Position numbers and translations under genes: made by a program. From an uncultured Clostridia bacterium (GTDB lineage Bacteria; Bacillota; Clostridia; Christensenellales; HGM11417), in assembly GCA_944332455.1 (NCBI GenBank), contig CALVJY010000002.1, positions 62,001 through 126,000 on the forward strand: 64,000 nt of DNA, read 5' to 3'. The notes beneath the pieces are model-generated. The model was not told where the DNA came from, did not search any database, and saw only the letters and a program-made list of their open reading frames with translations. Below, piece by piece: positions 40,232-57,389 of this stretch (position 1 is its first letter; the number at the start of each line of letters is the position of its first letter).

Positions 40232-42778
40232 TCATGTCTGCTTGAACACGGTCGCGGGACCCTCTTCCGCCTGCGTGATCCGCCAGGTCCCGGGGCCCAG
40301 GATCCCGCCCTCGAAGGGCTTTCCGTTCAGCAGACCGCGGACATTGGCCAAGGCGGAGGCCGTGGGCGGAATGGTGACGGTCAGCGTGACCGAACCGTCC
40401 GCTTCCCGCTGCCAGGAGGAGCAGACCTTTCCCCGAAGCGTCTCGAAGGAGGCCCGCACAAAGGACAGCGACTGAGGGAATCGGGGGTCGAGGATCAGCC
40501 GATCGCAGGCGACGGCCTCGTCCTGCACCCCGATCCCGGCCAGATAGCGGTAGAACCAGGCGTCATAGCTGCCGAACATAGGGTGATCGAAGGAGTGCAT
40601 TTCATTCTGCATCTCGGCCTCCCAGCGCTCCCAGACGGTGGTGGCGCCGTTGGCGATCATATAGCCCCAGCCGGGATACTCGGGATTGCGCAAAATGGCG
40701 AGCACCTCGTCGGCGTAGCCGTAGTCGGCCAGCACATAAAACAGGTGGCGGTAGCCCACATTGCCGCAGGTAGAGTGATGCCCCCTTTGGACGGCGTCTG
40801 CCGCGATCTTGGCGGCCACCTCCGCCGCCTCTCCGGGCGGACAGAGCCCCAGCGAGAGGGCCAGGCTGTTTTCGGCCTGGGTGCCCCCGGCATAGGTGTG
40901 GCTTTCGGCATGATAATAGGCCCGGTTGAGCGCCTTTTTGGCCTGCTCCGTCAGATCGGCGTAACGGGCGGCCTCCTCCTGTCTGCCCGCAATCCCGGCC
41001 AGCTCGGACAGCAGACGGAGCTGCCAGAACAGGTAGACCGAGGAGACATAGAGCGGATCGGTGGCCACATCGGCAAAGCAGGCCGGCGGCACCCAGTCCC
41101 CGTAGTAGGAATAGTCCATGATGAAATCCTTGCTGCGGGTCAGCAGGAAGTCCACCCACTTTTTCAGCCCCTCGAACTCCCGTTCGGCGACCGAGGCGTC
41201 CCCATAGAGACGGTGAGCCATCCGCGGCATGAGCAGATAGGCCGCCGAGACCGGATCGGCCGGACGGCCGCCCGTAAAGTAGGGCGCGGTGTCGGCTATG
41301 CCGCCCTGCTCGTCCATGGTGTCGGTGATATCCCGGACAAACTTGGGAAAGAAACACTCCATGCCGAAGTTGCACACCGTCTGATACAGCCGGGCGGAAA
41401 GGTCGTTGAGCCAGCCGAAGCGCTCGTCCCGCTGGGGGCAGTCGGTCAGAACGGAGTGGATGTTGTTGGTCTCGGTAAAGACGGCATTGCGGTGGAGCTG
41501 ATTTAAGACCTCGTCCGAACACTCGAAAGATCCGGCCGGGCGCACCTCGGTGTGGACGTATTCGGCAGTCAGAGACAGCAGTTCGGCCCGCCCCTCGATC
41601 TCGGCCTGGACATAACGGAAGCCGTGATAGGTGAAGCGGGGGGCCCATTCCTCCTCTTCCCCGCCCTTCAGGACGTAGGTATCGGCGCAGCGGGCGCTCC
41701 GCAGATTCAGCTGATTGACCGAACCGTCGGGCTTCAGGCCCTCGGCATAGCGCAGGGTGATCCGGGCGCCCCGTTCCCCTTTGACCCGGATCCTGGCCCA
41801 GCCGGCCAGATTCTGGCCCACGTCGATCACGATCGAGCCGTCGGCGAGGGGCTTTCTGGCGATCTCCGGGAATTGACCCAGCACCCGGATCTCGTTGGTC
41901 TGCGCCTCCGGCGCCCCGCCCGGGGCCTCCACGAGCAGCGGATACATCCAGCCGTTGGCCCAGGTGGGCTCGAAGTCCGGCGCGGACCAGTTCAGGGGGA
42001 ATTTCTCCTCCACCCGGGCATCGTAGACCTCCCCCCCGTAGATGCTGTTTTCCAGGGTGGGACTTCCTCCCACCCACCAGCCCCAGCCGTTGGCGGTGTG
42101 ATCTTCGTAACAGCTTCCGTCCTCAAAATCGATGTAGATCTGCACGAGCAGCTTCCGGGCGCCCAGCCAGCCATAGCCCACTTCGGCGCCGAAGACGTTG
42201 TCGCCCTGCTTCAGCCCGATCAGATCGTAAGTGCAGTACAGCACCCGCTTGTCGTAGGCGGTGACGCCGGGATTCAGACGGGCCTCGCCCAGCTTTTGGC
42301 CGTTGAGAAAGCACTCGTGATAGCCCAGCCCGCACACATAGGCGCGGGCCCTCCTGACCGGCTTCTCCACCTGAAAGCGCTTGCGCACCAGCAGGGTCCC
42401 CCCCTGGAAATTGACGGGGACCGAGACCCACTTTCCCTTCCAGTCCGATTGCTTCAGCAGGCCGATCTCGAAGGAGCCGACCGGGCTTTGGAAGACCCCC
42501 TTTTCGCAGACGGTCTCTGCCCGGACAAAGCCGACGGCCCTCGAGGACAGCGGCTTTCCGGCATAGGTCACCCCGAAACAGGTCTCCCCCGGCACTTCGC
42601 CCGAGTCCCAAAGGTCAAAGTCGCCGGCCTCCGCCCCTTCCCGGGAGGAGGCCACTCCCACCCGGTAGGAGAGCTGCCGGCCGGGATCGGCGGGATAGCG
42701 CCAGCAAAAGCGGGGCGCGGCGGTTTGCAGGCCGACGGGATCGGCTCGGTATTCTGTCAATAAGATCAATTCTTTCAT
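40232..42778 (-). CDS. Alpha-L-rhamnosidase, glycoside hydrolase family 78, cytoplasmic
   Basis: 848-residue inverting exo-hydrolase removing terminal alpha-L-rhamnose. Domain order is the usual one: N-terminal Ig-like/Bac_rhamnosid_N part (residues 1-110), carbohydrate-binding-like beta domain (about 110-300; FLNGQKLGEARLNPGVTAYD), a second beta domain (TADTYVLKG region), the (alpha/alpha)6 catalytic barrel (about 410-760) and a C-terminal beta domain. The catalytic region shows DCPQRDERFGWLND with the acidic pair, DYSYYGDW, and GATTVWERWEAEMQ ... FDHPMFGS. No signal peptide is present, so it works on imported oligosaccharides. It is the last gene of the operon. Its start (ATG at 42778) has no clear Shine-Dalgarno site and a hairpin precedes it, suggesting lower expression than the upstream surface protein. 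Confidence 0.95.
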   Translation of the reverse strand: MKELILLTEYRADPVGLQTAAPRFCWRYPADPGRQLSYRVGVASSREGAEAGDFDLWDSGEVPGETCFGVTYAGKPLSSRAVGFVRAETVCEKGVFQSPVGSFEIGLLKQSDWKGKWVSVPVNFQGGTLLVRKRFQVEKPVRRARAYVCGLGYHECFLNGQKLGEARLNPGVTAYDKRVLYCTYDLIGLKQGDNVFGAEVGYGWLGARKLLVQIYIDFEDGSCYEDHTANGWGWWVGGSPTLENSIYGGEVYDARVEEKFPLNWSAPDFEPTWANGWMYPLLVEAPGGAPEAQTNEIRVLGQFPEIARKPLADGSIVIDVGQNLAGWARIRVKGERGARITLRYAEGLKPDGSVNQLNLRSARCADTYVLKGGEEEEWAPRFTYHGFRYVQAEIEGRAELLSLTAEYVHTEVRPAGSFECSDEVLNQLHRNAVFTETNNIHSVLTDCPQRDERFGWLNDLSARLYQTVCNFGMECFFPKFVRDITDTMDEQGGIADTAPYFTGGRPADPVSAAYLLMPRMAHRLYGDASVAEREFEGLKKWVDFLLTRSKDFIMDYSYYGDWVPPACFADVATDPLYVSSVYLFWQLRLLSELAGIAGRQEEAARYADLTEQAKKALNRAYYHAESHTYAGGTQAENSLALSLGLCPPGEAAEVAAKIAADAVQRGHHSTCGNVGYRHLFYVLADYGYADEVLAILRNPEYPGWGYMIANGATTVWERWEAEMQNEMHSFDHPMFGSYDAWFYRYLAGIGVQDEAVACDRLILDPRFPQSLSFVRASFETLRGKVCSSWQREADGSVTLTVTIPPTASALANVRGLLNGKPFEGGILGPGTWRITQAEEGPATVFKQT

Positions 42779-42791
42779 ATCATTTCGTTAA

Positions 42792-42820
42792 AGAGCGCGG
42801 CGCGAAAGGCGCCGCGCTCT
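42792..42820 (-). terminator. GC-rich hairpin between surface protein and rhamnosidase genes
   Basis: Perfect 12-bp stem AGAGCGCGGCGC/GCGCCGCGCTCT with a 5-nt loop, followed on the minus strand by only TTT. It may act as partial terminator or as an mRNA 3'-end stabiliser inside the operon. Confidence 0.7.
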
Positions 42821-42870
42821 CTCCTTGTTTGATGAGATTACGCCTGTTCCGTCAGGATCTTGCGGTCTTT

Positions 42871-45800
42871 TCAGGCTTTCCGTTTGGCGATCAGCAGCAC
42901 GCCGCCCAGCAGGACCAGGACGCCAAGTCCAAAGACCGCGCCGGAAGCCGAGCCGCCGCAGCCGCCCTGGCAGCCGCCGCCCTTCACCGTGACCAGCACC
43001 GTGCCGGACAGCGTCTCGCCGTCCACCGTCACCCGGATGGTCACAGTCTGGGCCTCGCCGGTGATCTCGGTGTTCAGGCCGATGATCTGCGCGTCGGTCA
43101 GGTCCACGCTTTCGCCCGCTTTGCCGCTGGCCCATACCGTCACGGCGGTCAGCTCGGCCAGCAGGTCGTCCTCGGCGCCGATGGTGATCTCCTCAGGGGT
43201 GATGGCGATGCCGGTCCTGGCGTCCTGCACCGTGACTTCAATGGTCTTTTCGAACTTCCCGGCCGTGCCGCCGTCCAGGGTGACCGTGATGGTGGCCGTT
43301 CCCAGTCCCACCGCGTCCAGCACGCCGCGGTCGGTCACTCTGACCACGGACTCGTCGCTGGAAACATAGCTGAAGGTACCGGTGGTGGCGTTGGAAGGCT
43401 CACGGGTGACGCCGGCGTCCTGACGGGCCCCGAAGTTCATGGTGATGCTCTCGTTGGCCACGGCCATGCCGGTGTACTCCTTAAAGAAGCCCCAGACGTT
43501 GCCGTCAAAGCGGTAGATCATGTCCTCATTGACGACGGTCTCCACGATGTACATGCCGGTGCCGGGCGCCAGGGCGTTCTGATCCTCGGCGGTGGGAGCC
43601 AACTCGCCCGTCCAACGATACAGCTTCAGACCGGCCTTCAGGGTGATGGTGTCGCCCGCCTGGTAGTAGGGAGCCTTGTTGAAGTATTCCAGGAAGAGTT
43701 CCTTGTCGTTGGGCCCGATTTCCTTTTCCTCCCCATCCACCGTGATCGTGATCTTCTCGTTCAGGAAGTTCGGCATCAGGCAGAGGTTTCCGCCGGAGAG
43801 GAAGTAGTAGCCCATTTCCACCACGGTGCCGTCGGCACGGCGGTACTCGATCTTTTCCAACACGTCGGTAAAGCCGAGGTCGGGGCCGTTGGTGATGTTG
43901 CCGTTGTTCATGGAGGAGTCGGGATACTGCACGAAGGTGGCATAACTGAACCAATCCACGATGCCCAGCTCCTTGACGATGATCTCCATGGGTTCGTAGA
44001 CTGCCACCGGAATGGTGGTATCGTAAACCTCCCCGTTCAAGGTAATGGTGGCGGGCAGGGTGTACTCGCCCACCTCGTTGGTGTTCAGGTCGTCGGCGAT
44101 GACGCTCAGGTTGTCGCCCACGGTCAGGGGGACGGCGGGACCGGTCAGATCCTCTCCCTCGTAGACGGCAGTGACCGTCCAGTCGGTGGGATAGGCGATG
44201 GTCTGTCCCTTCTGCACCCACACGGTGTAGATGGTGGTCTCCACGTGATCGACGGCCACGGCCTCGATGACTTCAAAGGTGACGGAGTCCTCCAGCTTGC
44301 CGTTGACCACGGCTTTGATGGTGGCTGTGCCGGGAGCCAGGAAGGTGACCTGCCCGTTCTCGTCCACTTCGGCAATGTCCGGCGTTTCGCTGGTGAAGAC
44401 CGGGGTAGCATAGGTGCCCGCGCTCAGCGTCCAGGTCAGCTGATAGGCCGTCTCGGCGGGGAAAGAGGTGCTCTCGTCCGGCTCCGTCAGCTCGAAGCTG
44501 GTAGGATCGCCGACATACGGAGCCATGGGCACCGCAGCGCCGGTGGACAGCGCGGAGACCACGAACGAGACATCCTCTTTCAGCATCTCGTCGGCATTGA
44601 TGCGCAGTCCGGCCTTAAAGGTGACGCGGTCGCCCACGCGGACTTTGTCGATCAGGTCATCAATCGAGTTCCCGACCCGGAAGATCATATTGCCTCCGCC
44701 GACACAGATAAAGTCAGCGATGGGCTGCGGGTTGCCGAAGGTGTCCACGTATTCGATATAATCTGTTCCGGTGACCGCAGGAGCATAAGTTCCCAATCCG
44801 ACCGTAGAAGCACCGAAGTCCACCTGGAAAGCCTGGCCGCCCTGCTCCATGGCCCAATTGTAGCAATGGTAGGCGTTGACGATGGTCAGGGTCTTGCACT
44901 CCTCCTCAGGAGGCAGTTCAGGGCCCGCCCCCTCCAATTCAAAGGCCGTGCCGTTGTAGACAAAGACGTATTCCTGTTCTGTGCGCTCGTTAAAGAGGAA
45001 CCCGCAGCCCTCGGCAATGATGATCTTGTCGCCGTTCTGCGGGGCGCCGATCCGGGCAGCGGGATCGACCGAGGTGTTGTTGACGAACACGCCCAGGTTT
45101 GTGCCCATGGTGTAGATGTTGGTGACTTCGGTGGTCACGCCCTCCCGCTCATAGGTGATCTTCCCCAGAGCAAAAGCGTTATTCCGACCGGTTGCATTGT
45201 ACTCGTTGGGGTTTTTGGTGGTGCCGGCAAAATTGACGAGGTAAGCGTCAAAGCCTCCGTTGGCAGGAGAATAGTTGACTTGCGTGGGGACGATTTCCTC
45301 ATATTCGTCCAGGATCAGGTTGAAGCGGGTTCCGTCATACTCGAAGACATACTCCTGACGGGTGCGCTCGTCATCCATGAAGCCGCAGCCGGAGGCAATG
45401 GTGACCCGGTCGCCCTCCACGGCTTCGGTGATATTGTTGCCGCCCACAGGCCGTACATAACAGCCCAGTCTTGTCCCGAAACTGCGAATATGCCAGACTT
45501 CCATTTGCGTGCCATCCAGCCGGGTGTAGCTGATCTTGCCAAACGCGTTCAGGTTGTTGTCCATGACCGTCTCCGCATTGGCCGTCGTGCTTCCGAAGTC
45601 CACCATCAGGCAGCCCCAGTCGCTCGAATCCGAGAGGTAGACCTGTTCGGGATACAGGGTCTTGAACTCATCCTCGATCAGCTTGTAGCTGACGCCGTCG
45701 TACTCGTAGACGTACTCCTTGCTGGTCGCCTCGTTGTCCAAAAATCCGCAGCCCGCGGCGATGATGACCCGATCGCCCTTCACGGGGCCCGTGATATTGT

Positions 45801-46113
45801 TGCCGCCCACAGGCCGTACATAACAGCCCAGTCTTGTCCCGAAACTGCGAATATGCCAGACTTCCATTTGCGTGCCATCCAGCCGGGTGTAGCTGATCTT
45901 GCCAAACGCGTTCAGGTTGTTTTCCATGACCGTCTCCGCATTGGCCGTCGTGCTTCCGAAGTCCACCATCAGGCAGCCCCAGTCACTCGAATCCGTGAAA
46001 TAGACCGAATCCGGAATCAATTCCGTCGTCGACCCGTCCTGCGCAACGGCGATGGCCGTACACGCGCAGAACACGCAGGCCACCGACAGCAGGAAAGCGA
46101 ACAGTTTTTTCAT
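42871..46113 (-). CDS. Modular surface protein with 121-residue repeats, BIG2 domains and Cys-containing C-terminal anchor
   Basis: 1080-residue exported protein. Signal peptide residues 1-25 (ending AVA). Two nearly identical 121-residue modules follow (about 33-153 and 154-274): DSSDWGCLMVDFGSTTANAE, the Gly/Asn turn PVGGNNIT, a G-D-R-V-x-I-A-x-GCGF core and a closing EYVYEYDG. Diverged copies lie near 278-400 (NGDKIIIAEGCGFLFNERTE), 415-520 (GDRVTFKAGLRI) and 750-900 (GDTITLKAGLKLYRW). BIG2-like Ig domains sit between (VFTSETPDIAEVDENGQVTF ... PGTATIKA) and near residues 890-970. The C-terminus is GGCQGGCGG, a hydrophobic helix and KRKA, resembling a Cys-type sorting tail rather than LPxTG. 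Placement in the glycan operon suggests a glycan-binding or glycan-presenting surface protein; that is inference. Confidence 0.88.
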   Translation of the reverse strand: MKKLFAFLLSVACVFCACTAIAVAQDGSTTELIPDSVYFTDSSDWGCLMVDFGSTTANAETVMENNLNAFGKISYTRLDGTQMEVWHIRSFGTRLGCYVRPVGGNNITGPVKGDRVIIAAGCGFLDNEATSKEYVYEYDGVSYKLIEDEFKTLYPEQVYLSDSSDWGCLMVDFGSTTANAETVMDNNLNAFGKISYTRLDGTQMEVWHIRSFGTRLGCYVRPVGGNNITEAVEGDRVTIASGCGFMDDERTRQEYVFEYDGTRFNLILDEYEEIVPTQVNYSPANGGFDAYLVNFAGTTKNPNEYNATGRNNAFALGKITYEREGVTTEVTNIYTMGTNLGVFVNNTSVDPAARIGAPQNGDKIIIAEGCGFLFNERTEQEYVFVYNGTAFELEGAGPELPPEEECKTLTIVNAYHCYNWAMEQGGQAFQVDFGASTVGLGTYAPAVTGTDYIEYVDTFGNPQPIADFICVGGGNMIFRVGNSIDDLIDKVRVGDRVTFKAGLRINADEMLKEDVSFVVSALSTGAAVPMAPYVGDPTSFELTEPDESTSFPAETAYQLTWTLSAGTYATPVFTSETPDIAEVDENGQVTFLAPGTATIKAVVNGKLEDSVTFEVIEAVAVDHVETTIYTVWVQKGQTIAYPTDWTVTAVYEGEDLTGPAVPLTVGDNLSVIADDLNTNEVGEYTLPATITLNGEVYDTTIPVAVYEPMEIIVKELGIVDWFSYATFVQYPDSSMNNGNITNGPDLGFTDVLEKIEYRRADGTVVEMGYYFLSGGNLCLMPNFLNEKITITVDGEEKEIGPNDKELFLEYFNKAPYYQAGDTITLKAGLKLYRWTGELAPTAEDQNALAPGTGMYIVETVVNEDMIYRFDGNVWGFFKEYTGMAVANESITMNFGARQDAGVTREPSNATTGTFSYVSSDESVVRVTDRGVLDAVGLGTATITVTLDGGTAGKFEKTIEVTVQDARTGIAITPEEITIGAEDDLLAELTAVTVWASGKAGESVDLTDAQIIGLNTEITGEAQTVTIRVTVDGETLSGTVLVTVKGGGCQGGCGGSASGAVFGLGVLVLLGGVLLIAKRKA
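45428..45996. repeat. Recent in-frame duplication inside the surface-protein gene
   Basis: 45428-45633 and 45791-45996 are identical except for about one base in the first 180 and a few near the end. Offset is 363 bases, exactly 121 codons. The match is closer in DNA than needed to conserve the protein, indicating a recent duplication or gene conversion. Confidence 0.92.
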
Positions 46114-46164: not shown

Positions 46165-47403
46165 TCAAGATTCGCATTTGACGATCCGGGAGCAGATTCC
46201 GCTTCCCCCATCGTCCACAGAAAAATAGTACCAGGCCGCGCCCTCGGGAATGGCCGCAGTCACCGACGTTCCGCTGACCGGGCAGCGCATGGGCGACCAG
46301 ACTGCCTGTCCTTGGGTGATGTCGTCCGAGGTGTACCACAGACGGGCCTGCACGCCCTTTTCGCCCTGGTAGGCAAACACGGGGTTTTGGGCATCGGGTT
46401 CGGCCGTCGCCCTGGAAAAAGCGGGGCCGTCCTTGACGATGCTGTCGGCGAACAGGTAGGGTTCGATGGCCGCAGCGGCGTGCACCTGGCTGTGCGGCAG
46501 GCCGTCGACCAGGATCAGCCGGGCGTTTTTGCACCGCTCGTAGGTCTTCGAGACAGCCAGCGCCGAACAGGCCGCGTCCACATTGGAGGCATAGAACAGG
46601 ATGGGCGTGTTGACCTTGGCCAGCCCCTCGTCGTCGTCCCAGACCAGGGCCTCGGGATGGGCGGCGTAGTAGGAAGCCAGGTTTCCTCCGCTTCCCGCGA
46701 TGTTCAGCGAGCAGTAGATGGGCACGGAGAAGGCATACCGGTCGTCATAGCCGGTGACGATGGAGGCGATCACGCCGCCCCAGGACACCCCGCACACCCC
46801 GATCCGCTGGGGATCGGCCTCGGGCAGCCCGTGCAGCAGGCTGTTGCCCAGCGTGGCCGTGGAGACGGCATAGTACATCCAGGTCTCCTCCATCGGCAGG
46901 GCGGCGTCCGCATAGTTGACATTCTGCGGGGCGGGGTATTCCGAACGGGTGTAAAGCTGGGCCGGGTAGGACGACATGGTGCCGTCCCGGGTGGGCACAT
47001 GGCCCTCGAGGTCGGGTGCCAGGGCCACATAGCCCCGCTCTACCCAGGAAGCCACCCACTCCCAATAGGCCGTACCCGCGCCGCCGTGCAACAGCAGGAC
47101 GGCGGGAGCCGGATTTTCCGCGCTTGCGCCGGCGGGGATCCCCAGGTAGGCAAAGGCCTTGGTGGGTTCTCCCTTGTAAACGGTGTCGTACCAGATCCCC
47201 CGGATCTCCTCCGTCCGTGCGTGCGAGGGCTCTTCCTCCCATGCGGGGGCCGTCCACAGGGACTGCGGCAGTGCTACGCCGTCATAGACCGGTCCGTTCG
47301 TCATTTCTCGCTCCTCCTCCGGCGTTCCGCCGCAGCCGACCAGAGTCAGCGCAGCCAATACCGCCCAAATAATCGCTAAAAACCGTTTAGTAGCCGTACG
47401 CAT
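46165..47403 (-). CDS. Alpha/beta-hydrolase lipoprotein, acetyl-esterase-like
   Basis: 412-residue lipoprotein (signal ending LVGC, Cys24) with an alpha/beta-hydrolase domain related to acetyl xylan esterases/dienelactone hydrolases. Seen: oxyanion-hole segment VLLLHGGAGTAYWEW, nucleophile elbow GVCGVSWGGVIAS with the catalytic Ser, an acid-containing strand PILFYASNVDAACSA and a His in DGLPHSQVHAA. After the hydrolase domain, about 80 residues form a beta domain (VQARLWYTSDDITQGQAVW). Such enzymes remove acetyl or other ester groups from polysaccharides; substrate not proven. The ATG lies 17 bases inside the 3' end of the preceding gene, with GGGAGG seven bases upstream, so translation is coupled. 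Confidence 0.88.
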   Translation of the reverse strand: MRTATKRFLAIIWAVLAALTLVGCGGTPEEEREMTNGPVYDGVALPQSLWTAPAWEEEPSHARTEEIRGIWYDTVYKGEPTKAFAYLGIPAGASAENPAPAVLLLHGGAGTAYWEWVASWVERGYVALAPDLEGHVPTRDGTMSSYPAQLYTRSEYPAPQNVNYADAALPMEETWMYYAVSTATLGNSLLHGLPEADPQRIGVCGVSWGGVIASIVTGYDDRYAFSVPIYCSLNIAGSGGNLASYYAAHPEALVWDDDEGLAKVNTPILFYASNVDAACSALAVSKTYERCKNARLILVDGLPHSQVHAAAAIEPYLFADSIVKDGPAFSRATAEPDAQNPVFAYQGEKGVQARLWYTSDDITQGQAVWSPMRCPVSGTSVTAAIPEGAAWYYFSVDDGGSGICSRIVKCES

Positions 47404-49231
47404 AGCTTAGCCTCCCGATGGGGGCGGAGTCCCCGTAGAGATAGTAGCTCATGATGTCGCCGGGATTCTTGACGTGGTCGGCGACCTTGAACTGGATGTA
47501 GCAGGCGTCCGAGGTCAGCCCCAGGGCCTCCAGGGGCACCGAGACCAGCATCACGTTGCCGTAGACCCGGTATTCGCCCTGTCCGACGCTCTCCCAGCTC
47601 CAGCCGCCCTTCGAGCGCTCCACCGAGGTGACGCCTTCGCCGGGGGTGCGGTTGATCAGATAGTTGTAGCCCGCGAAGTCGTTCCGGCCGCTGAAATCGG
47701 ATCCGGCCGAGATCAGGATGTTCATCCAGCTCTCGTCCCCGCTCTCGTAGGCGGTGATGTCGTCCGCGGTCCGGACGTAAAAGTAGAGGTTTTCGGCGTC
47801 GTGCACCACCTTGACGTCGGTGATGTCGTTGCGGGCGGAGTCATCGGTGTAGACCTCGCTGCCCACCGCGTTTTCATAGTTCCGGACCATGGCGTCCCCC
47901 GCGATGTCCCGGTAGTGTGCGTTGACGTGATCCCACTGGGTCAGCATGCTCTCGTCCGAGAAGTCCGCAGTCATGCGCTGGTAGGCGTAGTGCCGGCCCT
48001 CGGTGTACTTGAATTCCCGAAGATTGCGGATGAACTGCAGGTAGAAGTTGTCGCCGTAGGCCCCCGAATCGGGCTCGATGTCGCGGGAATACTCGGAGGT
48101 GTAGACGTCGCAGAAGCTGGCGTCCGCCTGCTTGACGGCCATCCACTCGTTCCAGCCCGTGACCAGCACGTTTTCCACCAGGCCCTCATTGTCATGCACG
48201 GTCTGCCACTCGTTCTCGAAGTTGCGGCCGGCCTGCCAGTTCTCCTCCACCGTCTTGGTGGTGTAGTCGTACCCCCGGCTGGACTCGGGATCCTGCAGGG
48301 AGAAATTGATCCCCCGGGGCGAATGCTGGGCCACCGAGACCGAGATCGCCTTGCTGCCGGTGTGGATGTGCTGGGGATAGGACCAGCTCATCCAGGGAAT
48401 GGAATCGGGATTATAGTCGCCGTTGGGCCACTGGGACTCCACAATGTCAAAGCGGCCGCGGATCTCCTCCGGGATGAAGTCGGTGGCCGACTCCCCGTAA
48501 ATTTCGGGATATTTGGTCTGATCCGAGGCAAAGTTGTTGTTCTCGGTGATGCCGGCGATCAGGGGCTTGCCGTAGGGCGCGAACCACAGATGGTCGTAGC
48601 GCTCAGTCTGGAAGAACTCGTTGTAGAGCTTGGTGACCGTGGTCCCCGAGTAGCTGTTGGTGTAGAACATCACCTTGGGGGGATCAAAGCCCTGGTTCTG
48701 CAGGTCGGTCAGGGTGTCGAACAGCACCCGACAGACCTCCGGGTAGATGGAGGCGTTGGTGGCGTCGATGCACAGATAGTCCAGTCCGGCCATGGTCAGC
48801 ATCTCCATGTGGCGCATGACCACCCAGGGATCCCGCATGTTGTAGTAGCCGAACAGCGGCTCCCCGCAGAAGTGGAATTCTCCCATCCTGGACAGTTCGC
48901 TGTCCGCCGTGGAATGAAGGGCGGCGGCCCCCTCCCGGGTGGAGAGCAGCTCGTTGATGTCGAAGACGGCCGACTGCATGTACTGGTGCTGTCCCAGCCA
49001 CAGCGAGTAGAACACCCCCACGTAGCGGGTGCCGTCCTTGGCCTCGTCCATGGGCAGGAAGCTCCGGCCCAGCGCGTCGGTGGCCGTCAGGTTCATCAGG
49101 GTGTACTGTTCGGCGGTCAGACCGCGCTCGTCTTTGACCCGGTCGCTCTCCGGCGGGGTATTCCCTCCGCCGCAGCCCGTGCCCGTCAGGGCGATGGCCC
49201 CGGCCAGGATCATCAGCAACACTTTTTTCAT
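47387..49231 (-). CDS. GH99/WbsX-like TIM-barrel lipoprotein with C-terminal CBM9/DOMON-like domain (paralogue 2)
   Basis: 614-residue lipoprotein (signal ending GTGC, Cys20). Residues about 60-420 look like a glycoside-hydrolase TIM barrel: YVGVFYSLWLGQHQYM at strand 1, PLFGYYNMRDPWVVMRHMEM, GLDYLCIDATNASIY (Asp, likely active-site strand 4), VMFYTNSYSG, and VTGWNEWMAV with the W-N-E-W element seen in GH99- and WbsX-like proteins. The last 190 residues form a beta-sandwich of CBM9/DOMON type (DVKVVHDAENLYFYVRTADDI ... WMNILISAG). It ends DSAPIGRLSYAYGY. A full-length paralogue lies just upstream. Predicted extracellular glycan-cleaving enzyme; the specific linkage cannot be told. AAGGAAGGG precedes the ATG. 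Confidence 0.85.
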   Translation of the reverse strand: MKKVLLMILAGAIALTGTGCGGGNTPPESDRVKDERGLTAEQYTLMNLTATDALGRSFLPMDEAKDGTRYVGVFYSLWLGQHQYMQSAVFDINELLSTREGAAALHSTADSELSRMGEFHFCGEPLFGYYNMRDPWVVMRHMEMLTMAGLDYLCIDATNASIYPEVCRVLFDTLTDLQNQGFDPPKVMFYTNSYSGTTVTKLYNEFFQTERYDHLWFAPYGKPLIAGITENNNFASDQTKYPEIYGESATDFIPEEIRGRFDIVESQWPNGDYNPDSIPWMSWSYPQHIHTGSKAISVSVAQHSPRGINFSLQDPESSRGYDYTTKTVEENWQAGRNFENEWQTVHDNEGLVENVLVTGWNEWMAVKQADASFCDVYTSEYSRDIEPDSGAYGDNFYLQFIRNLREFKYTEGRHYAYQRMTADFSDESMLTQWDHVNAHYRDIAGDAMVRNYENAVGSEVYTDDSARNDITDVKVVHDAENLYFYVRTADDITAYESGDESWMNILISAGSDFSGRNDFAGYNYLINRTPGEGVTSVERSKGGWSWESVGQGEYRVYGNVMLVSVPLEALGLTSDACYIQFKVADHVKNPGDIMSYYLYGDSAPIGRLSYAYGY

Positions 49232-49253: not shown

Positions 49254-51056
49254 TCAGTAGCCGTAGGTGTAGGACAGTCTGCCGATGGGCGCCGAATCGC
49301 CGGTGACGTAGTAGTCCATGATGTCGTCGGGATGCTGCACGTTGTCGGCCACTTTCAGCTGCACGAAGCAATTGTCGGCGGTCAGTCCCAGGGCCTCCAG
49401 CGGAATGGCCAGCAGCATGGTGTCGCCGTAGACCCGGAGCTGGGCCGTGCCGGCCGTCTCCCACTCATACCCGCCGGTCGAGCGCTCCACCGAGGTGACG
49501 GTGCCGTCCGGATGGCGGTTGACGATGTACTTGTAGCCCGCAAAGGAGTTCGCCAGATCCTCGTCGGTCTTGATCAGCACATTCATCCAGTTTTCCCCTT
49601 CGGGATCGGTGATCTCCTCGGCCGCCGTCACCTTGATGTAGAGGTTCTGCCCGTCGTGGGTGACCATGACGTCGGTGATGTCGTTGCGGCCGGAAGTGTC
49701 GACGTAGGGATCCTTGTTGATGGCGTCGCGGAAGTTGCGGTCCAGCGTGTCTCCCTCGAAGTCCTTGAAGTGGGCGGCGCCGGTCCAGTCGGCAAAGTTC
49801 TGATCCTCGAGATCCACCGTGACCTGATCGGTCAGATAGTGCTTTGCAGGCTCGTACTTGAAGGCCCGGATGTTGTCTACGGTCTGCAGGTAGTAGTTGT
49901 CCTCGTACCCCCCGGCCATCATCTCGATGTCCCGGGAGTATTCCTCGTTGAAGGTATCCACAAAAAAGTAGGTCAGCCCGTCGTTTTTCTTGATGGCGAT
50001 CCACTCGTTCCAGCCTGTCAGGAAGACGTTGTTGACCGGGCGTTTGGGATTGGCGGCGTTCCAGTCGAACACCGTCTGCCACTGTCCGGCGTAGTTGCTG
50101 CCCAGTTCGGTCAGGGAAGAGTCGTTGCGGAAGGTGTCATAGTTGAACCCCCTGCCGTTGTTGCTCATGGCGCCCTCGCTCATGCGGGAGCCGGGGTGCT
50201 GAGCCAGCGAGACCGACATGGTGCCGTTGAAGTAGGACTGCGGGTACTCCCAGTCCATCCAGGGGAAGCCCCGCTCATAGTCCTTGACCAGATTCAGGTT
50301 GGGCCAGGTGGAAATGCGGAAGTCAAAGAACTCCTGGTACTCCTCGTTGAGGGCGGCCACCTCGTCGGGGGACATCACCATCCCCTCGTCCTGTCCCAGC
50401 ACCCCGATGATCAGGGGCTTTTCGCCGAAGGAGAACCACAGATCCTGATACTTGCCCTGGGCATACCAGGTCTCGTAGATCCGCTTGATGGTGGACATGG
50501 AGTTGGTGTTGGTGTAGAACGCCACTTTGGGGACGTCCCAGCCCTGATCCTGAAAGTAGGACAGCCTCTGGAAGATGGCCTCGATGGCCTGGGTGTAGAC
50601 CACGGTGTTGGTAGTGTCGTACACCAGGTAGTCCACCCCCGCCATGGTCAGCAGCTCGATGTGCCGGGTGATCACCCAGGGGTCGTCCGAGCAATAATAG
50701 CCGTACAGCGGCTCTCCCCAGTAGTGGTAGCGCTCCTTTCCTCGGGTGTTGTTCATGTCCCAAAAAGCTTCCTCATCCTCGGCCAGCAGCTTGGTGATGT
50801 CGTAAATTTCGGGATAGCCGTTGGTGTGATAGCCGTGCCAGATGTGGTAAAAAAGCCCCACATAGCTGCCTTCGATCTCGGCGTCGCCCGAGCGGACGGT
50901 CCGTCCCTCGCGGTCGGTCGAGGAGAGGTTCAGCGTCGTGTACTGAAAGGGGGTCAGCTCCCGGGTGTCCTCCACCCGCTCCTCCCCGCCGCCGCATCCG
51001 GCAAAAGCAGTCAGGAAGAGGGCCAGCAAAAGGCTCCAGACAACGATTTTTTTCAT
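49254..51056 (-). CDS. GH99/WbsX-like TIM-barrel lipoprotein with C-terminal CBM9/DOMON-like domain (paralogue 1)
   Basis: 600-residue lipoprotein (signal ending FAGC), colinear with the next gene downstream from end to end. Barrel landmarks: YVGLFYHIWHGYHTNGYPEI, PLYGYYCSDDPWVITRHIEL, GVDYLVYDTTNTVVY, VAFYTNTNSMST, FLTGWNEWIAI. The C-terminal CBM9/DOMON-like domain contains DVMVTHDGQNLYIKVTAAEE and ENWMNVLIK, and the end is DSAPIGRLSYTYGY, the same tail as its paralogue. The ATG at 51056 (signal MKKIVVWSLLLALF) has AAAGGAG upstream and is preferred to the ATG at 51077. The two copies differ in the barrel loops, so they probably act on different parts of one glycan. The assignment to GH99/WbsX-like is from motif memory, not a search. 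Confidence 0.85.
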   Translation of the reverse strand: MKKIVVWSLLLALFLTAFAGCGGGEERVEDTRELTPFQYTTLNLSSTDREGRTVRSGDAEIEGSYVGLFYHIWHGYHTNGYPEIYDITKLLAEDEEAFWDMNNTRGKERYHYWGEPLYGYYCSDDPWVITRHIELLTMAGVDYLVYDTTNTVVYTQAIEAIFQRLSYFQDQGWDVPKVAFYTNTNSMSTIKRIYETWYAQGKYQDLWFSFGEKPLIIGVLGQDEGMVMSPDEVAALNEEYQEFFDFRISTWPNLNLVKDYERGFPWMDWEYPQSYFNGTMSVSLAQHPGSRMSEGAMSNNGRGFNYDTFRNDSSLTELGSNYAGQWQTVFDWNAANPKRPVNNVFLTGWNEWIAIKKNDGLTYFFVDTFNEEYSRDIEMMAGGYEDNYYLQTVDNIRAFKYEPAKHYLTDQVTVDLEDQNFADWTGAAHFKDFEGDTLDRNFRDAINKDPYVDTSGRNDITDVMVTHDGQNLYIKVTAAEEITDPEGENWMNVLIKTDEDLANSFAGYKYIVNRHPDGTVTSVERSTGGYEWETAGTAQLRVYGDTMLLAIPLEALGLTADNCFVQLKVADNVQHPDDIMDYYVTGDSAPIGRLSYTYGY

Positions 51057-51201: not shown

Positions 51202-52056
51202 TCAGCCCTTGACGCTGCCCACCATGACGCCGTCGATCAGCTGTTTTTGGAAGATGGCGAACAGCAGGGCCGGGAAGACGGACATAAACACGCCGCCGGC
51301 CATGCGGATGTTGGCGCGGTCCATGGCCGCGTCGCCCTCCGTGGAATTTTCAAACAGCACCAACGCGAAAGTCTTGGGGGCCTCGGAGCTGTGCATGTAC
51401 ATCAGAGGTCCGAAGTAGTCTCCCCAGTAGGCCAGAAAAACGTTGACCACCACATAGACCAGCACGGCCTTGCACAGGGGCAGGCAGATGGACAGAAACC
51501 GCCGCAGGGCGCTGGCCCCGTCGATCTTGGCGGCGCTGTCCATGTCGCGGGGGATCCCCCGCATGAACTGGGTCAGCAGGAAGATGTAGACCGCGCCGCC
51601 CCCGAACAGGTTGGGGATGATGAAGGGATACAGCGTGTCGATCCACCCGAAGGTGAAGTACAGCGAGTACAGCGGGACCTGGGTGACGGCGCCGGGCAGC
51701 ATCATGGTGCCCAGCATGATCGCAAACATGAATCCCCGCCCCCTCCACTGCAGCTTGGCAAAGGAAAAGGCGATCAGGGAGGCCGACAGCGGCACAAAGA
51801 TCATGTTGCAGACCACGATCAGCAGGGTGTTCAGAAATCCCGACAGATACCGCCCGGTGCTGAACAGCTCCAGGTAGTTGGAAAACTGCGGCACCGACGG
51901 GAAGAACAGGGGCACGGGCTGGATGACCTCGGAGGAGGTCATCAGGCTCTTGGAGATCATGTAGCAGAACGGGAAGAGCAGAATGACTGTCAGAAGGCCC
52001 ATGATCGCATAAAGCAGCACGGAGAGCGCCAATCTGGAACGTTTGGAAGATCTCAT
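51202..52056 (-). CDS. Sugar ABC transporter permease, MalG/CUT1 type
   Basis: 284-residue inner-membrane permease with six transmembrane helices. The cytoplasmic EAA loop is seen as DSAAKIDGASALRRFLSICLPL (about residues 185-206; described, with the conserved D-G-A and P). It starts RSSKRSRLALSVLLYAIMG and ends QLIDGVMVGSVKG, the usual tail of MalG-like subunits (GLxxGxxKG). It begins one base after the stop of the partner permease (TAA-G-ATG). Together with that permease and the binding protein it forms a CUT1 importer for an oligosaccharide. The ATPase (MsmK/UgpC type) is not in the window and is probably shared, as is common in Bacillota. Confidence 0.94.
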   Translation of the reverse strand: MRSSKRSRLALSVLLYAIMGLLTVILLFPFCYMISKSLMTSSEVIQPVPLFFPSVPQFSNYLELFSTGRYLSGFLNTLLIVVCNMIFVPLSASLIAFSFAKLQWRGRGFMFAIMLGTMMLPGAVTQVPLYSLYFTFGWIDTLYPFIIPNLFGGGAVYIFLLTQFMRGIPRDMDSAAKIDGASALRRFLSICLPLCKAVLVYVVVNVFLAYWGDYFGPLMYMHSSEAPKTFALVLFENSTEGDAAMDRANIRMAGGVFMSVFPALLFAIFQKQLIDGVMVGSVKG

Positions 52057-52057
52057 C

Positions 52058-52975
52058 TTAAGCCTCCTCCCCGTAGAACACCCATTTGCTGGTCGCGAAC
52101 AGCACCACGGTGATCATTCCGATGACGATCAGGAAGCACCAGGCCAGAGCGCTGCCGTAGCCGATCATGCCGGACTCGATGGCCTCCTGGTAGATCTTGA
52201 CCGCGTACATGTACAGCGAGTTGTCCCAGCCCCGCCCGCCGTTGGGGGCATAGGTCAGAGGGCCGTTGTACTGCAGGGTGCCGATGGTGGACATGATGAC
52301 GTTATAGAAGATCATGGGGGTGGACATGGGAATGGTGATGTACCAAAATCCCGCCAGCCGTCCTCCCCCCTCGATCTGCACGGCCTCGTAGTACTGCTTG
52401 TCGATGTTCTTGAAGGCCGACAGCCACAGGATCATGCCGCCGCCCACCGTCCAGAGGTTCATGATGAACACCGACACCATAGAGGTCCCCGCCTCCGCGA
52501 AAAAGGGAAAGGGGGCAATGCCGACCAGGCCCAGGATGCGGTTGAAGATGCCGTAGGTCTGGCCGAACATGTCCTTCCACAGCAGGCCGCTGACCACCGC
52601 GGGGATGGTCACGGGCAGGTAGAACAGCACCCGGAAGACCTTGACGCCTTTCAGAGAGGTGTTGACCAGCAGAGCCAGAAAGTAGGAGGTCACCAAAGAC
52701 AGCGGGATGGAGACCACCGAGTAGATCACGGTGTTCAGGAAGGTCCTGGAGACTTCCCCCCAGTCCGCCGTGAACATCAGCGCGTAGTTGTGGACCCCCC
52801 AGGCCTCGAAGGTGAAGCCGTTGTACCGCCACATGAAGGAATAGATCAGGGAGAACAGCACCGGGATCAGGGTAAACACCACGATGCCCACTGTCAGCGG
52901 CAGATTGAACAGCCACCCGGTGTAGTTGTCCCGGAAAAACTTTCTGGCGTTGAAGTTTTTAAAAAAAGTTTTCAT
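52058..52975 (-). CDS. Sugar ABC transporter permease, MalF/CUT1 type
   Basis: 305-residue permease with six transmembrane helices. N-terminal TGWLFNLPLTVGIVVFTLIP and IYSFMWRYNGFTFEAWGVHNY are typical of MalF/UgpA-like subunits. The EAA loop reads YEAVQIEGGGRLAGFWYITI (conserved E-A, G and following P). Its ATG overlaps the stop codon of the binding-protein gene (ATGA), and the MalG-type gene follows after one base. The three genes form one importer unit. Substrate is inferred from context to be a rhamnose-containing oligosaccharide; the permease sequence itself does not show this. Confidence 0.94.
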   Translation of the reverse strand: MKTFFKNFNARKFFRDNYTGWLFNLPLTVGIVVFTLIPVLFSLIYSFMWRYNGFTFEAWGVHNYALMFTADWGEVSRTFLNTVIYSVVSIPLSLVTSYFLALLVNTSLKGVKVFRVLFYLPVTIPAVVSGLLWKDMFGQTYGIFNRILGLVGIAPFPFFAEAGTSMVSVFIMNLWTVGGGMILWLSAFKNIDKQYYEAVQIEGGGRLAGFWYITIPMSTPMIFYNVIMSTIGTLQYNGPLTYAPNGGRGWDNSLYMYAVKIYQEAIESGMIGYGSALAWCFLIVIGMITVVLFATSKWVFYGEEA

Positions 52976-54366
52976 CCGATCAGGGCGTTGTCGACTTCCT
53001 TCACGCAGGAGGCGATGGCGTCGTCAATGGACTTGCTCAGGTTCAGGGCGTTGTTGAACAATCCCTTGGTGGCCCGGTCCAGGTCGCTCTTGTAGGAGGC
53101 GTCCACCCGGCCGAGGAAGTCCACGGCGATCTTGTACTCGCTGCCGTACAGGTAGGCGCCCATGTTGATGTCGCTGTAGTCCTTGCCCCAGTTGGCGGTG
53201 GTGTAGTCGGCCAGATCCCGGCGGATGGAGGCCAGATTCAGCCCGGCGCTGCCCATGGCCTGCTGTCCTTCCTTGGAGAGCATGTGGCACAGGAAGGCCC
53301 AGCAGATGTCCTTTTCCTCGTCCGAGAGCTCCGCGTTGATCATGTAGCCGGCGATGCCCGAGCCGATTTTGGGATTTTCGCCGATCAGCGGGAAAGAGAC
53401 CAGGTCCACAAACCTTTCGCCGGTAAGCTCATCCTTCAGGACCGGACGGTTGGCATACAGCGAGACCGAGGCAGACTGGAACAAAAAGGCCGAGGTGCCG
53501 GTTTCGTAAGAACTGGCCGATTCCTTGGAGGTGTTCACGATGTAGCGTTTTTCCACCATCTCGCGGAGCATTTCCAGGCAGGCCCGGGTCTCGGGGGTGT
53601 CCACCGAGTTGTTGCCCTCCTCATCCAGGATGTCCGCCCCGTAGGAGCGCAGGATGGGATAGCAGGTCGAAAGCCAGGCCGTCAGATTGGCGTCCAGCAC
53701 GTAGTGGCTCTGGCGGCCGTTTTTGTCCAGATAATCGCGTACCTGCTGGCAGACGTCCAGGAACTGATCCCAGGTCCAGCCGTTTTTGACCACGGTGGTC
53801 TCGGGGTTCAGATCCACCCCGGCTTTTTTCAAAATGTCTTTGTTGATGAAGGTGACCACCGAGTCCGCGCTGCGGGGAATGGCGTAAAGCTGCCCTTCCA
53901 TGGTGCTGCAGTCAAAGAACTCCTGGTAAAAATCCACGTCCACGTCGAACAGGCCGGCGGCCTCGGAGGCCTCGATGTAGGGGGTCAGATTTTCGGCGAT
54001 GCCGGTGTCGGCCGGATAGTAAAGGTCAGGCGAATTGGTCCAGAAGATGTCGTCCAGCGACCCCGTCCGGGCCAGGTTGCGGATGGTGTTCTCGTAGGCG
54101 TTGACCGACAGGTAGGAGTACTTGAAGGTCACGTAGGGGTACTTCAGGTTGAAGCTGTCGATCAGGGCGTCGATCATGGTGGTTTCATTCGCGTTGCCGC
54201 TGGGGATCAGAATGGAGATCTCGGCCTCGACATCGGGATCCAGCTCCAGATCGATGGTGGCAGGATCGCGGGTGGGGACCTCCACTTCCCCGGGCTGCAT
54301 ACATCCGGCCAGCGAGCCGAACACTACCAGCAGCGACAATAAAAGCAGCATCATTTTTTTCATCAT
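52972..54366 (-). CDS. Extracellular sugar-binding lipoprotein of the ABC importer
   Basis: 464-residue solute-binding protein of the family-1 type, anchored as a lipoprotein (signal ending LAGC). After the anchor, ISILIPSGNANETTMIDALI begins the N-lobe. The pattern NLARTGSLDDIFWTNSPDLYY and YAIPRSADSVVTFINKDILKKAG is standard for CUT1 binding proteins, as are GWTWDQFLDVCQQ and FLFQSASVSLYANR. The frame is open to 54642, but AAGGAGG lies six bases before the ATG at 54366 (a second ATG follows directly), so the signal peptide start is there. The 3' end overlaps the MalF-type permease gene by four bases. Confidence 0.93.
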   Translation of the reverse strand: MMKKMMLLLLSLLVVFGSLAGCMQPGEVEVPTRDPATIDLELDPDVEAEISILIPSGNANETTMIDALIDSFNLKYPYVTFKYSYLSVNAYENTIRNLARTGSLDDIFWTNSPDLYYPADTGIAENLTPYIEASEAAGLFDVDVDFYQEFFDCSTMEGQLYAIPRSADSVVTFINKDILKKAGVDLNPETTVVKNGWTWDQFLDVCQQVRDYLDKNGRQSHYVLDANLTAWLSTCYPILRSYGADILDEEGNNSVDTPETRACLEMLREMVEKRYIVNTSKESASSYETGTSAFLFQSASVSLYANRPVLKDELTGERFVDLVSFPLIGENPKIGSGIAGYMINAELSDEEKDICWAFLCHMLSKEGQQAMGSAGLNLASIRRDLADYTTANWGKDYSDINMGAYLYGSEYKIAVDFLGRVDASYKSDLDRATKGLFNNALNLSKSIDDAIASCVKEVDNALIG

Positions 54367-54488: not shown

Positions 54489-55772
54489 TCAAGCTTCGTA
54501 GTCGTTCAGCATGGACAGAATGTTCATGGCGTACAGCCGGGAGGTGTAGTCGTTCAGGTGATTGATGCCGTTCCCGGTCACGTCCATATATTTTTTGGTG
54601 CTCAGCATGGTAAGGCTCTGGGTGTAAAGATCCAGCGTCCACACGCCGGCGTTTTCTGCAATGCGGTCCAGCTGGGCCCAGTAGTCCTCGAACAGCTCGC
54701 CGTCATAGGACATGATCTCGGGGGTGAAGGCCTTGATCAGCACGATCTCGGCCTCGGGCAGAGCGGCCTTGACCCTCAGCACCAGGGACTCGATGTTGTC
54801 CCCGTAGGCCATTCCCGAAAAATCGCTGCCGTTGTCATTGATGCCGAAGTGGATGAACAGTACGTCCGGCGCATCTGCGATGATCTCGTCAACCTGGGCT
54901 TGCGCGGCCCCCCACTCCGAGGTCATGCCGCCCAGGGCGTAGTTGCCCACCGTGACCTCCCCCGTCTTTCCGGCCGCCCGGTAGCCCGCATTCAGGGCCA
55001 GCGCGGTCAGGTCGATGAAGTTGGGCAGGTACGGCTCGCGGTTGAACATCGAGGACGACGAGCACCCCTCGGCCACCGAATCGCCGATGATGCCCAGCCT
55101 AACGTCCTCGCCGGCAGCCAGCTTGGCCTTCAGCGCGGGCAGCTCGGCGGCGTCAAAGGTCTTGAAGTCCCCAAGCTCAGCCTCGGCGGGATCGTAGACG
55201 TAGCTGACCGAGACCTGATGGCCGTAGATGAGACTGCCCTCGGTGTAGATGGTGGCCCCCATCATCACCACGTCAGTCTCGACGTTGGCGATGGAGGAGA
55301 CCACTTGATACCCCTCCGGCAGCTCCTGTCCCGTCAGATTTGCCTCGGTCAGGTAGGGAATGTCGGAATTTTCGGTCCGCACGATGATGTTTCCCTCCAC
55401 CGTGAAGTCCTCTCCCTCAGTAAACTCGACATCCCAGGCGTAATCGCGTACCGAAAGAATTTTTTTGGGGGTGAACAGCAGTTTGCCCGAGATGCTCTCC
55501 CCGTCATCCACCAGCATGACGGTCTCGTTGTAGACCACATTGCCCAGCCAGAAGGGGTTGAGCATGGAGACCAGTTCGTCCGACCACACGTATTGGCCGG
55601 AAGAGGGGTCCAAGGTGCGCGCTTCCTCCACCGAAAAGTCGTAGACCGGATCTTCCTGATAAAAGGGCAGATCCTCCTTCGACGGCGGCTCGGGCTCGCC
55701 GCCGCAGCCGCTGACCAAAAAGACTCCCAGGGCCATCAGGACGCTGAGCGCGACGATCAAAAGACGTTTCAT
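54489..55772 (-). CDS. SGNH/GDSL hydrolase lipoprotein (predicted carbohydrate esterase)
   Basis: 427-residue lipoprotein (signal ending VSGC). An N-terminal beta domain (about 30-215) precedes an SGNH hydrolase domain (about 220-420) with block I GIIGDSVAEG (catalytic Ser), block II NYALGGMTSEW (Gly), block III HFGINDNGSD (Asn) and a C-terminal GINHLNDY (His). This N-beta plus SGNH plan is known from extracellular carbohydrate deacetylases. It is first in the operon and lies 122 bases before the binding-protein gene. The ATG at 55772 has GGAGG six bases upstream; the frame is open to 55823 but that part would precede the Shine-Dalgarno site. A candidate promoter with a GTATAC palindrome lies 56 bases upstream. 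Confidence 0.9.
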   Translation of the reverse strand: MKRLLIVALSVLMALGVFLVSGCGGEPEPPSKEDLPFYQEDPVYDFSVEEARTLDPSSGQYVWSDELVSMLNPFWLGNVVYNETVMLVDDGESISGKLLFTPKKILSVRDYAWDVEFTEGEDFTVEGNIIVRTENSDIPYLTEANLTGQELPEGYQVVSSIANVETDVVMMGATIYTEGSLIYGHQVSVSYVYDPAEAELGDFKTFDAAELPALKAKLAAGEDVRLGIIGDSVAEGCSSSSMFNREPYLPNFIDLTALALNAGYRAAGKTGEVTVGNYALGGMTSEWGAAQAQVDEIIADAPDVLFIHFGINDNGSDFSGMAYGDNIESLVLRVKAALPEAEIVLIKAFTPEIMSYDGELFEDYWAQLDRIAENAGVWTLDLYTQSLTMLSTKKYMDVTGNGINHLNDYTSRLYAMNILSMLNDYEA

Positions 55773-55944: not shown

Positions 55945-55960
55945 AAAAAGTATACTTTTT
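55945..55960. repeat. GTATAC-centred palindrome, copy 4
   Basis: Perfect AAAAAGTATACTTTTT, flanked by CCG and AGG so that the whole matches copy 1 (CCGAAAA...TTTTCGG). It lies 97 bases beyond copy 3, between the esterase operon and a repeat array. Confidence 0.75.
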
Positions 55961-56044
55961 AGGCAGTTCTGCCGCAGGTCAGGCCTGGATCTCCTGCAAA
56001 AACAGGGTTCTGGCCGCCCGCCTTTCCGGCTCCGAAAAGAGATG

Positions 56045-56320: not shown

Positions 56321-56484
56321 CGCTCACGTTTCGCCCGGGAAAGGACGAGATTTCTTCCCTGAAAAAGTCCGAAGATCGCTTTACGCTTCTCTTATATCAT
56401 AAAGTAAAAAACATAGAATGTAAATACATTTTTTTTGGAAAAATATGGACAATCCACAGATTTTGCCCCTTTCGGAGAATTTGT

Positions 56485-56514
56485 TTGACCCCGCCTTCGC
56501 AAATATGGTATACT
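56485..56514 (+). promoter_or_regulatory. Sigma-A promoter of the AraC regulator
   Basis: -35 TTGACC (56485-56490), 18-nt spacer, -10 TATACT (56509-56514). Expected start near 56521, just before the Shine-Dalgarno site of the ATG at 56538. Confidence 0.8.
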
Positions 56515-56537
56515 GGATGCAGAAGAGGGAGGAGACG

Positions 56538-57389
56538 ATGAGAGAACTTTCGGAAATGATCCGCACGGTCGGATTTTATGTGGAGGAGGCAGGTTTTGCC
56601 ACGGTAGGAGATTTCTGGAAAGACATCGTGAGCTTCTGGAAAAAACATCGGTTCTACTATATCGAGAGCGGGCAGGCCCAAATGACGCTGCGGAACGCCA
56701 GGCTGGACCTGGAGCCGGGGATGCTTTACTACATCCCCAAAAATTCGGTGATCACCGCCTCCAATCAGGGGTTTCTGCGGCACTACTACATCCACTTCGA
56801 GGCCGACGAGACGGGCAACACCTTTTTGTCCTCTCTCTCCCCCGAAGGGGGCGTACCGGCCTCGCCCGAGGACGTCGGCTTTTTCCGGGCCGTGCTGGCC
56901 GCCGTCGAGCGGGAGGACCCCTCTCCCTCCGGGGCGCTCTACCTCAACGGCCTGATGCAGATCATTCTCTCCCGCTTCATCGGCAGCCTGGGCGAGAACT
57001 TCGGGAACCGGAACATTTTGCGGTTTTTCGACATCATGCAGTACGTGGAAAACAACGTCGAAAAAAAGATCACCGTCAAGGAACTGGCCGCCATGGCCAA
57101 CCTGAACGAGGTCTACTTTTCCAACTGCTTTTCCAAAGCGGTTGGCCAGCCTCCCCTGCAATATATCCTGGAAAAAAAGCTGCAGCACGCCATGGTCCTG
57201 CTGCAGGACGAGCGGCTGTCCATCAAGGAGATCGCCTACCGCCTCAATTTCGGAGACGTCCTCTACTTCTCCCGCCTGTTCAAGCGCAAGACCAAGCTCT
57301 CCCCCTCGGAATTCCGCAATCTCTTCCGGCAGTCCGCCGAGGAAGGAGGCCGCCCCGCGTCCGCCCCCTTCCCCCTTCCGCCCGGCTGA
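56538..57389 (+). CDS. AraC-family transcriptional regulator of the glycan locus
   Basis: 283-residue DNA-binding protein. N-terminal cupin-like sensing domain (about 20-130; FYYIESGQAQMTLRNARLDL, GMLYYIPKNS) and C-terminal AraC DNA-binding domain with two helix-turn-helix units: VKELAAMANLNEVYFSNCF and IKEIAYRLNFGDVLYFSRLF, followed by the family ending KLSPSEFR. The frame is open from 56445, but the promoter overlaps that part and GGAGG sits just before the ATG at 56538, so the later start is chosen. Divergent position to the esterase-ABC-glycosidase operon is the standard arrangement for a sugar-responsive activator of that operon. The C-terminal 15 residues (Pro/Gly-rich) are extra. Confidence 0.93.
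   Translation: MRELSEMIRTVGFYVEEAGFATVGDFWKDIVSFWKKHRFYYIESGQAQMTLRNARLDLEPGMLYYIPKNSVITASNQGFLRHYYIHFEADETGNTFLSSLSPEGGVPASPEDVGFFRAVLAAVEREDPSPSGALYLNGLMQIILSRFIGSLGENFGNRNILRFFDIMQYVENNVEKKITVKELAAMANLNEVYFSNCFSKAVGQPPLQYILEKKLQHAMVLLQDERLSIKEIAYRLNFGDVLYFSRLFKRKTKLSPSEFRNLFRQSAEEGGRPASAPFPLPPG

Follow-up and report, generated by a model that had tools for sequence, protein, structure and literature searches.

A Clostridia operon uniting a sugar importer and a GH78 rhamnosidase with two lipoproteins of an unnamed GH99-like TIM-barrel family

A stretch of 64,000 nucleotides from an uncultured Clostridia bacterium (the window) carries, at positions 40232-57389, a gene cluster in which two lipoproteins, here called TIM-A and TIM-B, stand without a family name. 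This raises the question of what these two proteins do and what kind of glycan the cluster serves. The locus spans 17.2 kb, rather than the 15 kb given in a first-pass annotation of this DNA, and consists of ten open reading frames (ORFs): an AraC gene on the plus strand and, divergent from it, nine colinear minus-strand genes running from 55772 to 40232 in the order SGNH esterase, binding protein, permease, permease, TIM-A, TIM-B, alpha/beta hydrolase, surface protein, and GH78. This layout, already described in the first-pass annotation, is borne out by the ORF coordinates and by domain searches. Pfam and NCBIfam place eight of the ten genes, and the two left over are as follows.

49254..51056, minus strand: TIM-A, a lipoprotein with a GH99-like TIM barrel (approximately residues 60-400) and a C-terminal CBM9-like beta-sandwich (approximately residues 420-600)
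47387..49231, minus strand: TIM-B, a paralogue of TIM-A (44% identity) with the same domain layout, forming a separate orthologous clade in five operons

The locus is likely a Gram-positive polysaccharide utilisation locus (gpPUL) for a rhamnose-containing glycan in gut-type Clostridia, in a model that includes cutting of the glycan by the barrels. A gpPUL is defined as a locus in which a degrading enzyme, a carbohydrate transporter, and a transcriptional regulator occur together (PMC5320581). All three are found here, with GH78 as the only recognised glycosidase, and together with the conserved gene set this upholds the earlier designation as a glycan-utilisation locus. Its novelty rests on the barrel family, which has a GH99-like fold with a defining catalytic feature of GH99 missing.

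No Pfam or NCBIfam model covers the barrel of TIM-A, of TIM-B, or of 16 further homologues; the sole recurrent library match among them is an SGNH domain fused to two Bacteroidia members. Placement of the barrels in an unrelated family by HMM search, which the first-pass annotation had named as a refutation, thus did not occur in these two libraries, where no family fits them. An AlphaFold2 model of TIM-A, built from 18 sequences (pLDDT 82.7, pTM 0.87), retrieves GH99 structures first in Foldseek (1.7e-5, prob 1.0), followed by GH71 (AnGH71C, 7.8e-5). Further matches over short stretches, to glucodextranase and to an ethylbenzene dehydrogenase subunit, we take as reflecting the C-terminal CBM9-like sandwich of the modelled protein. 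The viral fold library gave unnamed or remote matches only, and a single-sequence PDB search with TIM-A found nothing. A profile of 84 barrel members, by comparison, reaches GH99 structures by sequence (2.7e-6) at about 15% identity, with the barrel motif GWNEW.A aligned opposite the GH99 motif SFNEWHEG. The equivalent of GH99 E333, in the NEW motif, is E351 of TIM-A, which is Glu in 84/84 members. At the position of GH99 E336, the members have Ala (68), Thr (6), Val (5), Met (4), or Asn (1), and Glu in none of the 84. The human GH99 catalytic pair, E404/E407, is identical to that of the bacterial GH99 enzymes (PMC11025385). Four residues of TIM-A, D142, D147, E351, and D376, are invariant in all 84 members at identities down to 24%; in the model, D147 closes barrel strand 143-147 and E351 closes strand 343-351. 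We propose E351, with either D147 or D376, as the candidate catalytic residues.

Because the E336 position is never Glu, the barrels are set apart from GH99 and represent an unnamed sister family of it. The endo-alpha-1,2-mannosidases/mannanases of GH99 (PDB 4acy, 4ad0, 4ad1) share the TIM-barrel fold, the profile match, and the NEW motif with its E333 equivalent. However, the barrels differ in the Ala/Thr/Val/Met/Asn at E336, the CBM9-like C-terminal domain, and the invariant D147 and D376. The Pfam GH99 model (PF16317) matches none of 18 barrel members and nothing in this genome, and some members of another genome, G213, give partial matches below its cut-off (29.3 bits versus 33). Likewise, WbsX (PF14307) has no match above its curated cut-off in this genome, and the WbsX genes of G213, G425, and G426 occupy positions different from those of the listed barrels. 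Pfam GH71 does not match the barrels, for which the likeness is one of fold only; GH71 alpha-1,3-glucanase and WbsX belong to the same broad TIM-barrel group, with no Pfam match between the barrels and either of them. Of the earlier description of the barrels as GH99/WbsX-like, the GH99-like fold and profile therefore stand, and membership in GH99 or WbsX does not. No description of the barrel family or of the operon was found in the open literature, and the family libraries compared were Pfam and NCBIfam, not CAZy.

To judge from their sequences, the barrels are probably sugar-cutting enzymes. On balance, we favour the reading that they make up a glycoside hydrolase family of their own within the GH99/GH71 group, one that uses another catalytic pair and has reached dozens of copies in several Clostridia genomes; there, individual copies would be tied to different importers and intracellular enzymes. 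The alternative that survives best, although we consider it unlikely, is that TIM-A and TIM-B are non-enzymatic surface glycan-binding proteins with a dead GH99-type pocket, which pass oligosaccharides to the importer in a SusD-like role while other organisms, or secreted enzymes encoded elsewhere, do the cutting. The loss of Glu at the E336 position would fit such a role, as would lipoproteins with a CBM9-like domain, and fusions to solute-binding domains suit capture: in G213, two barrels are fused to such a domain (L081:2455-5835 and L098:7594-10896). In two Bacteroidia loci (L013 and L014), the barrel is instead joined to an SGNH domain, which repeats the pairing seen in the operon. The invariance of E351, D147, and D376 at such low identity, however, is more than binding normally demands, and with binding-only barrels the operon would be left without an extracellular depolymerase. 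Between the two roles, catalysis is the most likely.

The other eight genes of the locus are listed below.

56445..57389, plus strand: AraC-family regulator, divergent (HTH_18, 4.6e-20; AraC_binding)
54489..55772, minus strand: SGNH/GDSL lipoprotein esterase (Lipase_GDSL_2, 7.8e-15; lipobox VSGC; motifs GDS, GxND, and NHLN)
52972..54366, minus strand: CUT1 solute-binding lipoprotein (SBP_bac_8, 2.4e-26)
52058..52975, minus strand: CUT1 permease of the MalF/UgpA type (NCBIfam UgpA and MalF matches; syntenic)
51202..52056, minus strand: CUT1 permease of the MalG/UgpE type (BPD_transp_1, 4.7e-8; UgpE and MalG matches)
46165..47403, minus strand: alpha/beta-hydrolase lipoprotein, esterase type (DLH, 2e-7; nucleophile elbow GVSWGG)
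42871..46113, minus strand: secreted surface protein with a C-terminal transmembrane anchor (Big_2, 3.7e-16; five copies of an unnamed beta domain of ~110 residues)
40232..42778, minus strand: cytoplasmic GH78 alpha-L-rhamnosidase (five GH78-type Pfam domains; catalytic domain PF17389, 9.7e-84)

In the proposed mechanism, AraC would sense the imported sugar and switch the operon on, the anchored surface protein would hold the glycan at the cell, and the SGNH and alpha/beta-hydrolase lipoproteins would strip ester groups. TIM-A and TIM-B would then cut the glycan outside the cell through a catalytic pair other than that of E333/E336, and the binding protein and two permeases would take up the oligosaccharides with energy from a shared MalK/MsmX-type ATPase whose gene lies elsewhere. 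Inside the cell, GH78 would free L-rhamnose for the RhaA pathway. The hydrolysis of glycosidic bonds by TIM-A and TIM-B, the order of events, the removal of esters, and rhamnose as the released sugar are steps that we infer.

The gene set is conserved as a whole. A search for related loci gave six relatives, among them those of a Clostridia metagenome-assembled genome (L009), a genome from goat rumen (L010), a genome from reindeer (L011), and a member of the Haloplasmataceae with 31% GC (L012). The scan used six short peptide patterns, and its count of genomes with the operon is a lower bound. The same genes occur in the same order in L009, L010, and L012, and in L011 up to its contig end, with identities to the window from 80% (TIM-A, L009) down to ~31-33% (AraC in L010; surface protein in L012). 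The TIM-A and TIM-B proteins fall into two distinct orthologous clades of five members each (supports of 1.0 and 0.991, respectively); in both, L009 pairs with the window, L010 pairs with L011, and L012 is outermost. The fixed order and the matching clades thus mark the gene set as an old unit, and the co-occurrence in related genomes on which the first-pass annotation had staked its reading is present. In each of the nine minus-strand genes, codon differences from L009, the closest relative, fall mainly at third positions (0.17/0.12/0.58 for TIM-A), which shows the minus-strand reading frames to be genuine and subject to purifying selection. Translation likely begins at 54366 for the binding protein, 55772 for the SGNH protein, and 51056 for TIM-A. 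By sequence inspection, lipoboxes are found in five proteins, namely, the SGNH protein, the binding protein, TIM-A, TIM-B, and the alpha/beta hydrolase. Elsewhere in the window, positions 4311-28469 hold a series of minus-strand genes for very large proteins of secreted or lipoprotein type (1061, 1274, 1366, 1026, and 2009 aa, by inspection), among which lies a gene for an ABC-type ATPase (21009-21746, likewise assigned by inspection).

The rhamnose link proposed in the first-pass annotation gains support from GH78 and from the genes that accompany it. GH78 has no signal peptide on sequence inspection, can be aligned along almost its entire length with solved rhamnosidases (6i60, 4.8e-143; 3w5m, 4e-111), and keeps the RDER and WERW motifs of 3w5m, which we take to hold the two catalytic glutamates; its six-hairpin catalytic domain is that of a GH78 member. 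In L012, the operon runs straight on into rhaA (L-rhamnose isomerase, PF06134, 1e-153) and a class II aldolase gene (9.7e-29), presumably for rhamnulose-1-phosphate aldolase. In this genome, rhaA is present on contig C9, outside the locus (2.4e-176). Together, the GH78 motifs, the attached rhaA of L012, and the rhaA of this genome point to L-rhamnose as what GH78 likely releases, rather than to any particular polymer. We consider it quite improbable that the locus instead salvages small rhamnosides (flavonoid or saponin glycosides of plants, or preformed oligosaccharides) and relies chiefly on GH78. A single, cytoplasmic GH78 would fit that role, and GH78 enzymes commonly act on small rhamnosides. 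On the other hand, the number of lipoproteins (five) and the size of the surface protein (1080 residues, with repeated domains) suggest that the substrate is large and cell-bound; CUT1 importers, to which this one belongs, take oligosaccharides; and paralogous loci pair their barrels with GH94 phosphorylase-type enzymes instead. Slightly less probable still is that the barrels are divergent GH99 endo-alpha-mannosidases/mannanases acting on an alpha-mannan or N-glycan type of substrate, since GH99 being the best fold and profile match and the partial Pfam matches in G213 are set against the absence of Glu at E336 in all 84 members, the lack of any Pfam GH99 match in this genome, and an intracellular partner that is a rhamnosidase, not a mannosidase.

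The importer is of the CUT1 type, with a binding protein and two permeases in one operon. The nearest solved relative of the binding protein is the arabino-oligosaccharide-binding protein 6rjy (6e-15); the permease at 52058-52975 has no BPD_transp match in the Pfam search. The whole genome encodes one OB_MalK ATPase (C4:37272, 7.6e-12), which is of the MalK/MsmX type and could energise this importer. The absence of an ATPase gene from the operon would then be explained by this single protein encoded elsewhere, as with MsmX of Bacillus subtilis, which energises several importers, rhamnogalacturonan ones among them (PMC5730181). The B. subtilis YesOPQ and YtcQP-YteP rhamnogalacturonan importers served by MsmX are likewise CUT1 systems for rhamnose-containing oligosaccharides without their own ATPase gene, whereas the enzyme set of the operon is different here (PMC5730181). 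The gpPULs of Roseburia and E. rectale (PMC5320581) similarly combine a regulator, an ABC importer, and a degrading enzyme in one locus. In contrast to those, an unnamed family here seems to fill the depolymerase role, the locus includes two lipoproteins of esterase type and an anchored surface protein with repeated domains, and the order is fixed although the proteins are often only 33-60% identical between genomes.

The SGNH lipoprotein has 6hfz as its nearest solved relative (E 5e-4) and is 44-68% identical to its counterparts in the syntenic loci. The alpha/beta hydrolase gives weak matches to the acetyl xylan esterase structures 6agq and 6fkx and is syntenic in L009, L010, L011, and L012. 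That the substrate is O-acetylated is a guess from these two esterase-type genes. The surface protein, which has no LPXTG motif in its 1080 residues, carries its five beta-domain copies at residues 47-125, 168-246, 290-373, 428-505, and 725-832; related surface proteins hold one to three. The modelled domain (pLDDT 91.6) has no fold match below E 0.001 in the fold search. A divergent AraC gene is also found in L009, L010, L011, L012, and the paralogous locus L026. Between the SGNH and AraC genes, window positions 55946-56323 contain three to four diverged direct repeats of ~97 bp each, and similar repeats (69-76% identity) form a second array at G000:C27:26967-27582.

Beyond this operon, the barrel family is expanded, a more interesting point that the first-pass annotation missed. 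Six-frame searches and fetched stretches of the genome revealed 10 barrel copies in six loci of this genome, all with ABC sugar-importer genes and four with a binding protein recognised by PF13416. On C33, the whole locus recurs in a second version, with SGNH, importer, a single barrel, surface protein, and GH78; the loci on C7 and C12 have GH94 phosphorylase-type enzymes, and the one on C8 has GH78-related and melibiase-type genes farther along. The C12 and C8 loci also encode proteins of ~680 residues (L024:16256-18295 and L028:1276-3321, respectively) with a PQQ/beta-propeller-like stretch; the C12 protein has, in addition, a sub-cut-off permease domain, which suggests a permease with an extra extracytoplasmic domain. 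Barrel matches occur in 26 of 391 genomes of the class, and full scoring per genome gave 47 in G082, 46 in G213, 30 in G166, 26 in G292, and 12 in G053. The 46-47 matches fall in single Clostridia genomes of 2.6-2.9 Mb; a few matches in the high-copy genomes are fragments at contig ends. In the phylum of the Bacteroidia relative, 3 of 296 genomes have matches, one of them weak and partial. None of the 40 nearest relatives of this genome has a barrel homologue, and vertical inheritance within the order is therefore not supported by that sample. The patchy distribution fits horizontal spread or repeated loss.

The surroundings of the copies vary. In G082 (L101-L120), a gene of one cluster, c1, comes after most of the barrels (28 c1 genes in the fetched operons), so that two-gene cassettes recur; the c1 member scanned combines six F5/8 type C domains with a copper-amine-oxidase-N-like domain. 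Two barrels, at L095 and L124 in two different genomes, precede genes that belong to one GH127 (beta-L-arabinofuranosidase-type) cluster. A scripted, randomly sampled census of five genomes compared genes at most two places from a barrel with genes at least five places away. It counted AraC in 14 near versus 7 far of 106 and GH78 in 3 versus 0, which are small numbers; F5/8 domains occur in 4 near genes, and the families listed for the far set do not include them. As a search for a shared substrate in the high-copy genomes, the census yielded little beyond AraC enrichment. The idea that barrel copies always adjoin transporters holds for the six loci here and is false for G213 and G082.

Several points weigh against the proposed model. 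Enzymatic activity is assigned to every barrel member from sequence, and the key GH99 catalytic position is lost, so the barrel mechanism cannot be read off GH99. Ester removal is ascribed to two putative esterases, and GH78 enzymes also act on flavonoid glycosides. In G213 and G082, which have the most copies, the barrel genes lie mostly away from transporters, and the census shows only more AraC and few GH78 genes near them.

If the barrels are enzymes, the carbohydrate-degrading capacity of these Clostridia is undercounted, as the family is absent from Pfam and NCBIfam. The operon, with its two barrels, two esterases, one importer, and one rhamnosidase, offers a defined test case for a first activity, and the loss of a catalytic glutamate from the GH99 fold, whose mechanism is known to be unusual, poses a clear mechanistic question. 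Should the barrels indeed form a new glycoside hydrolase family, these bacteria would have in it one of their main means of cutting diverse glycans, so far uncounted.

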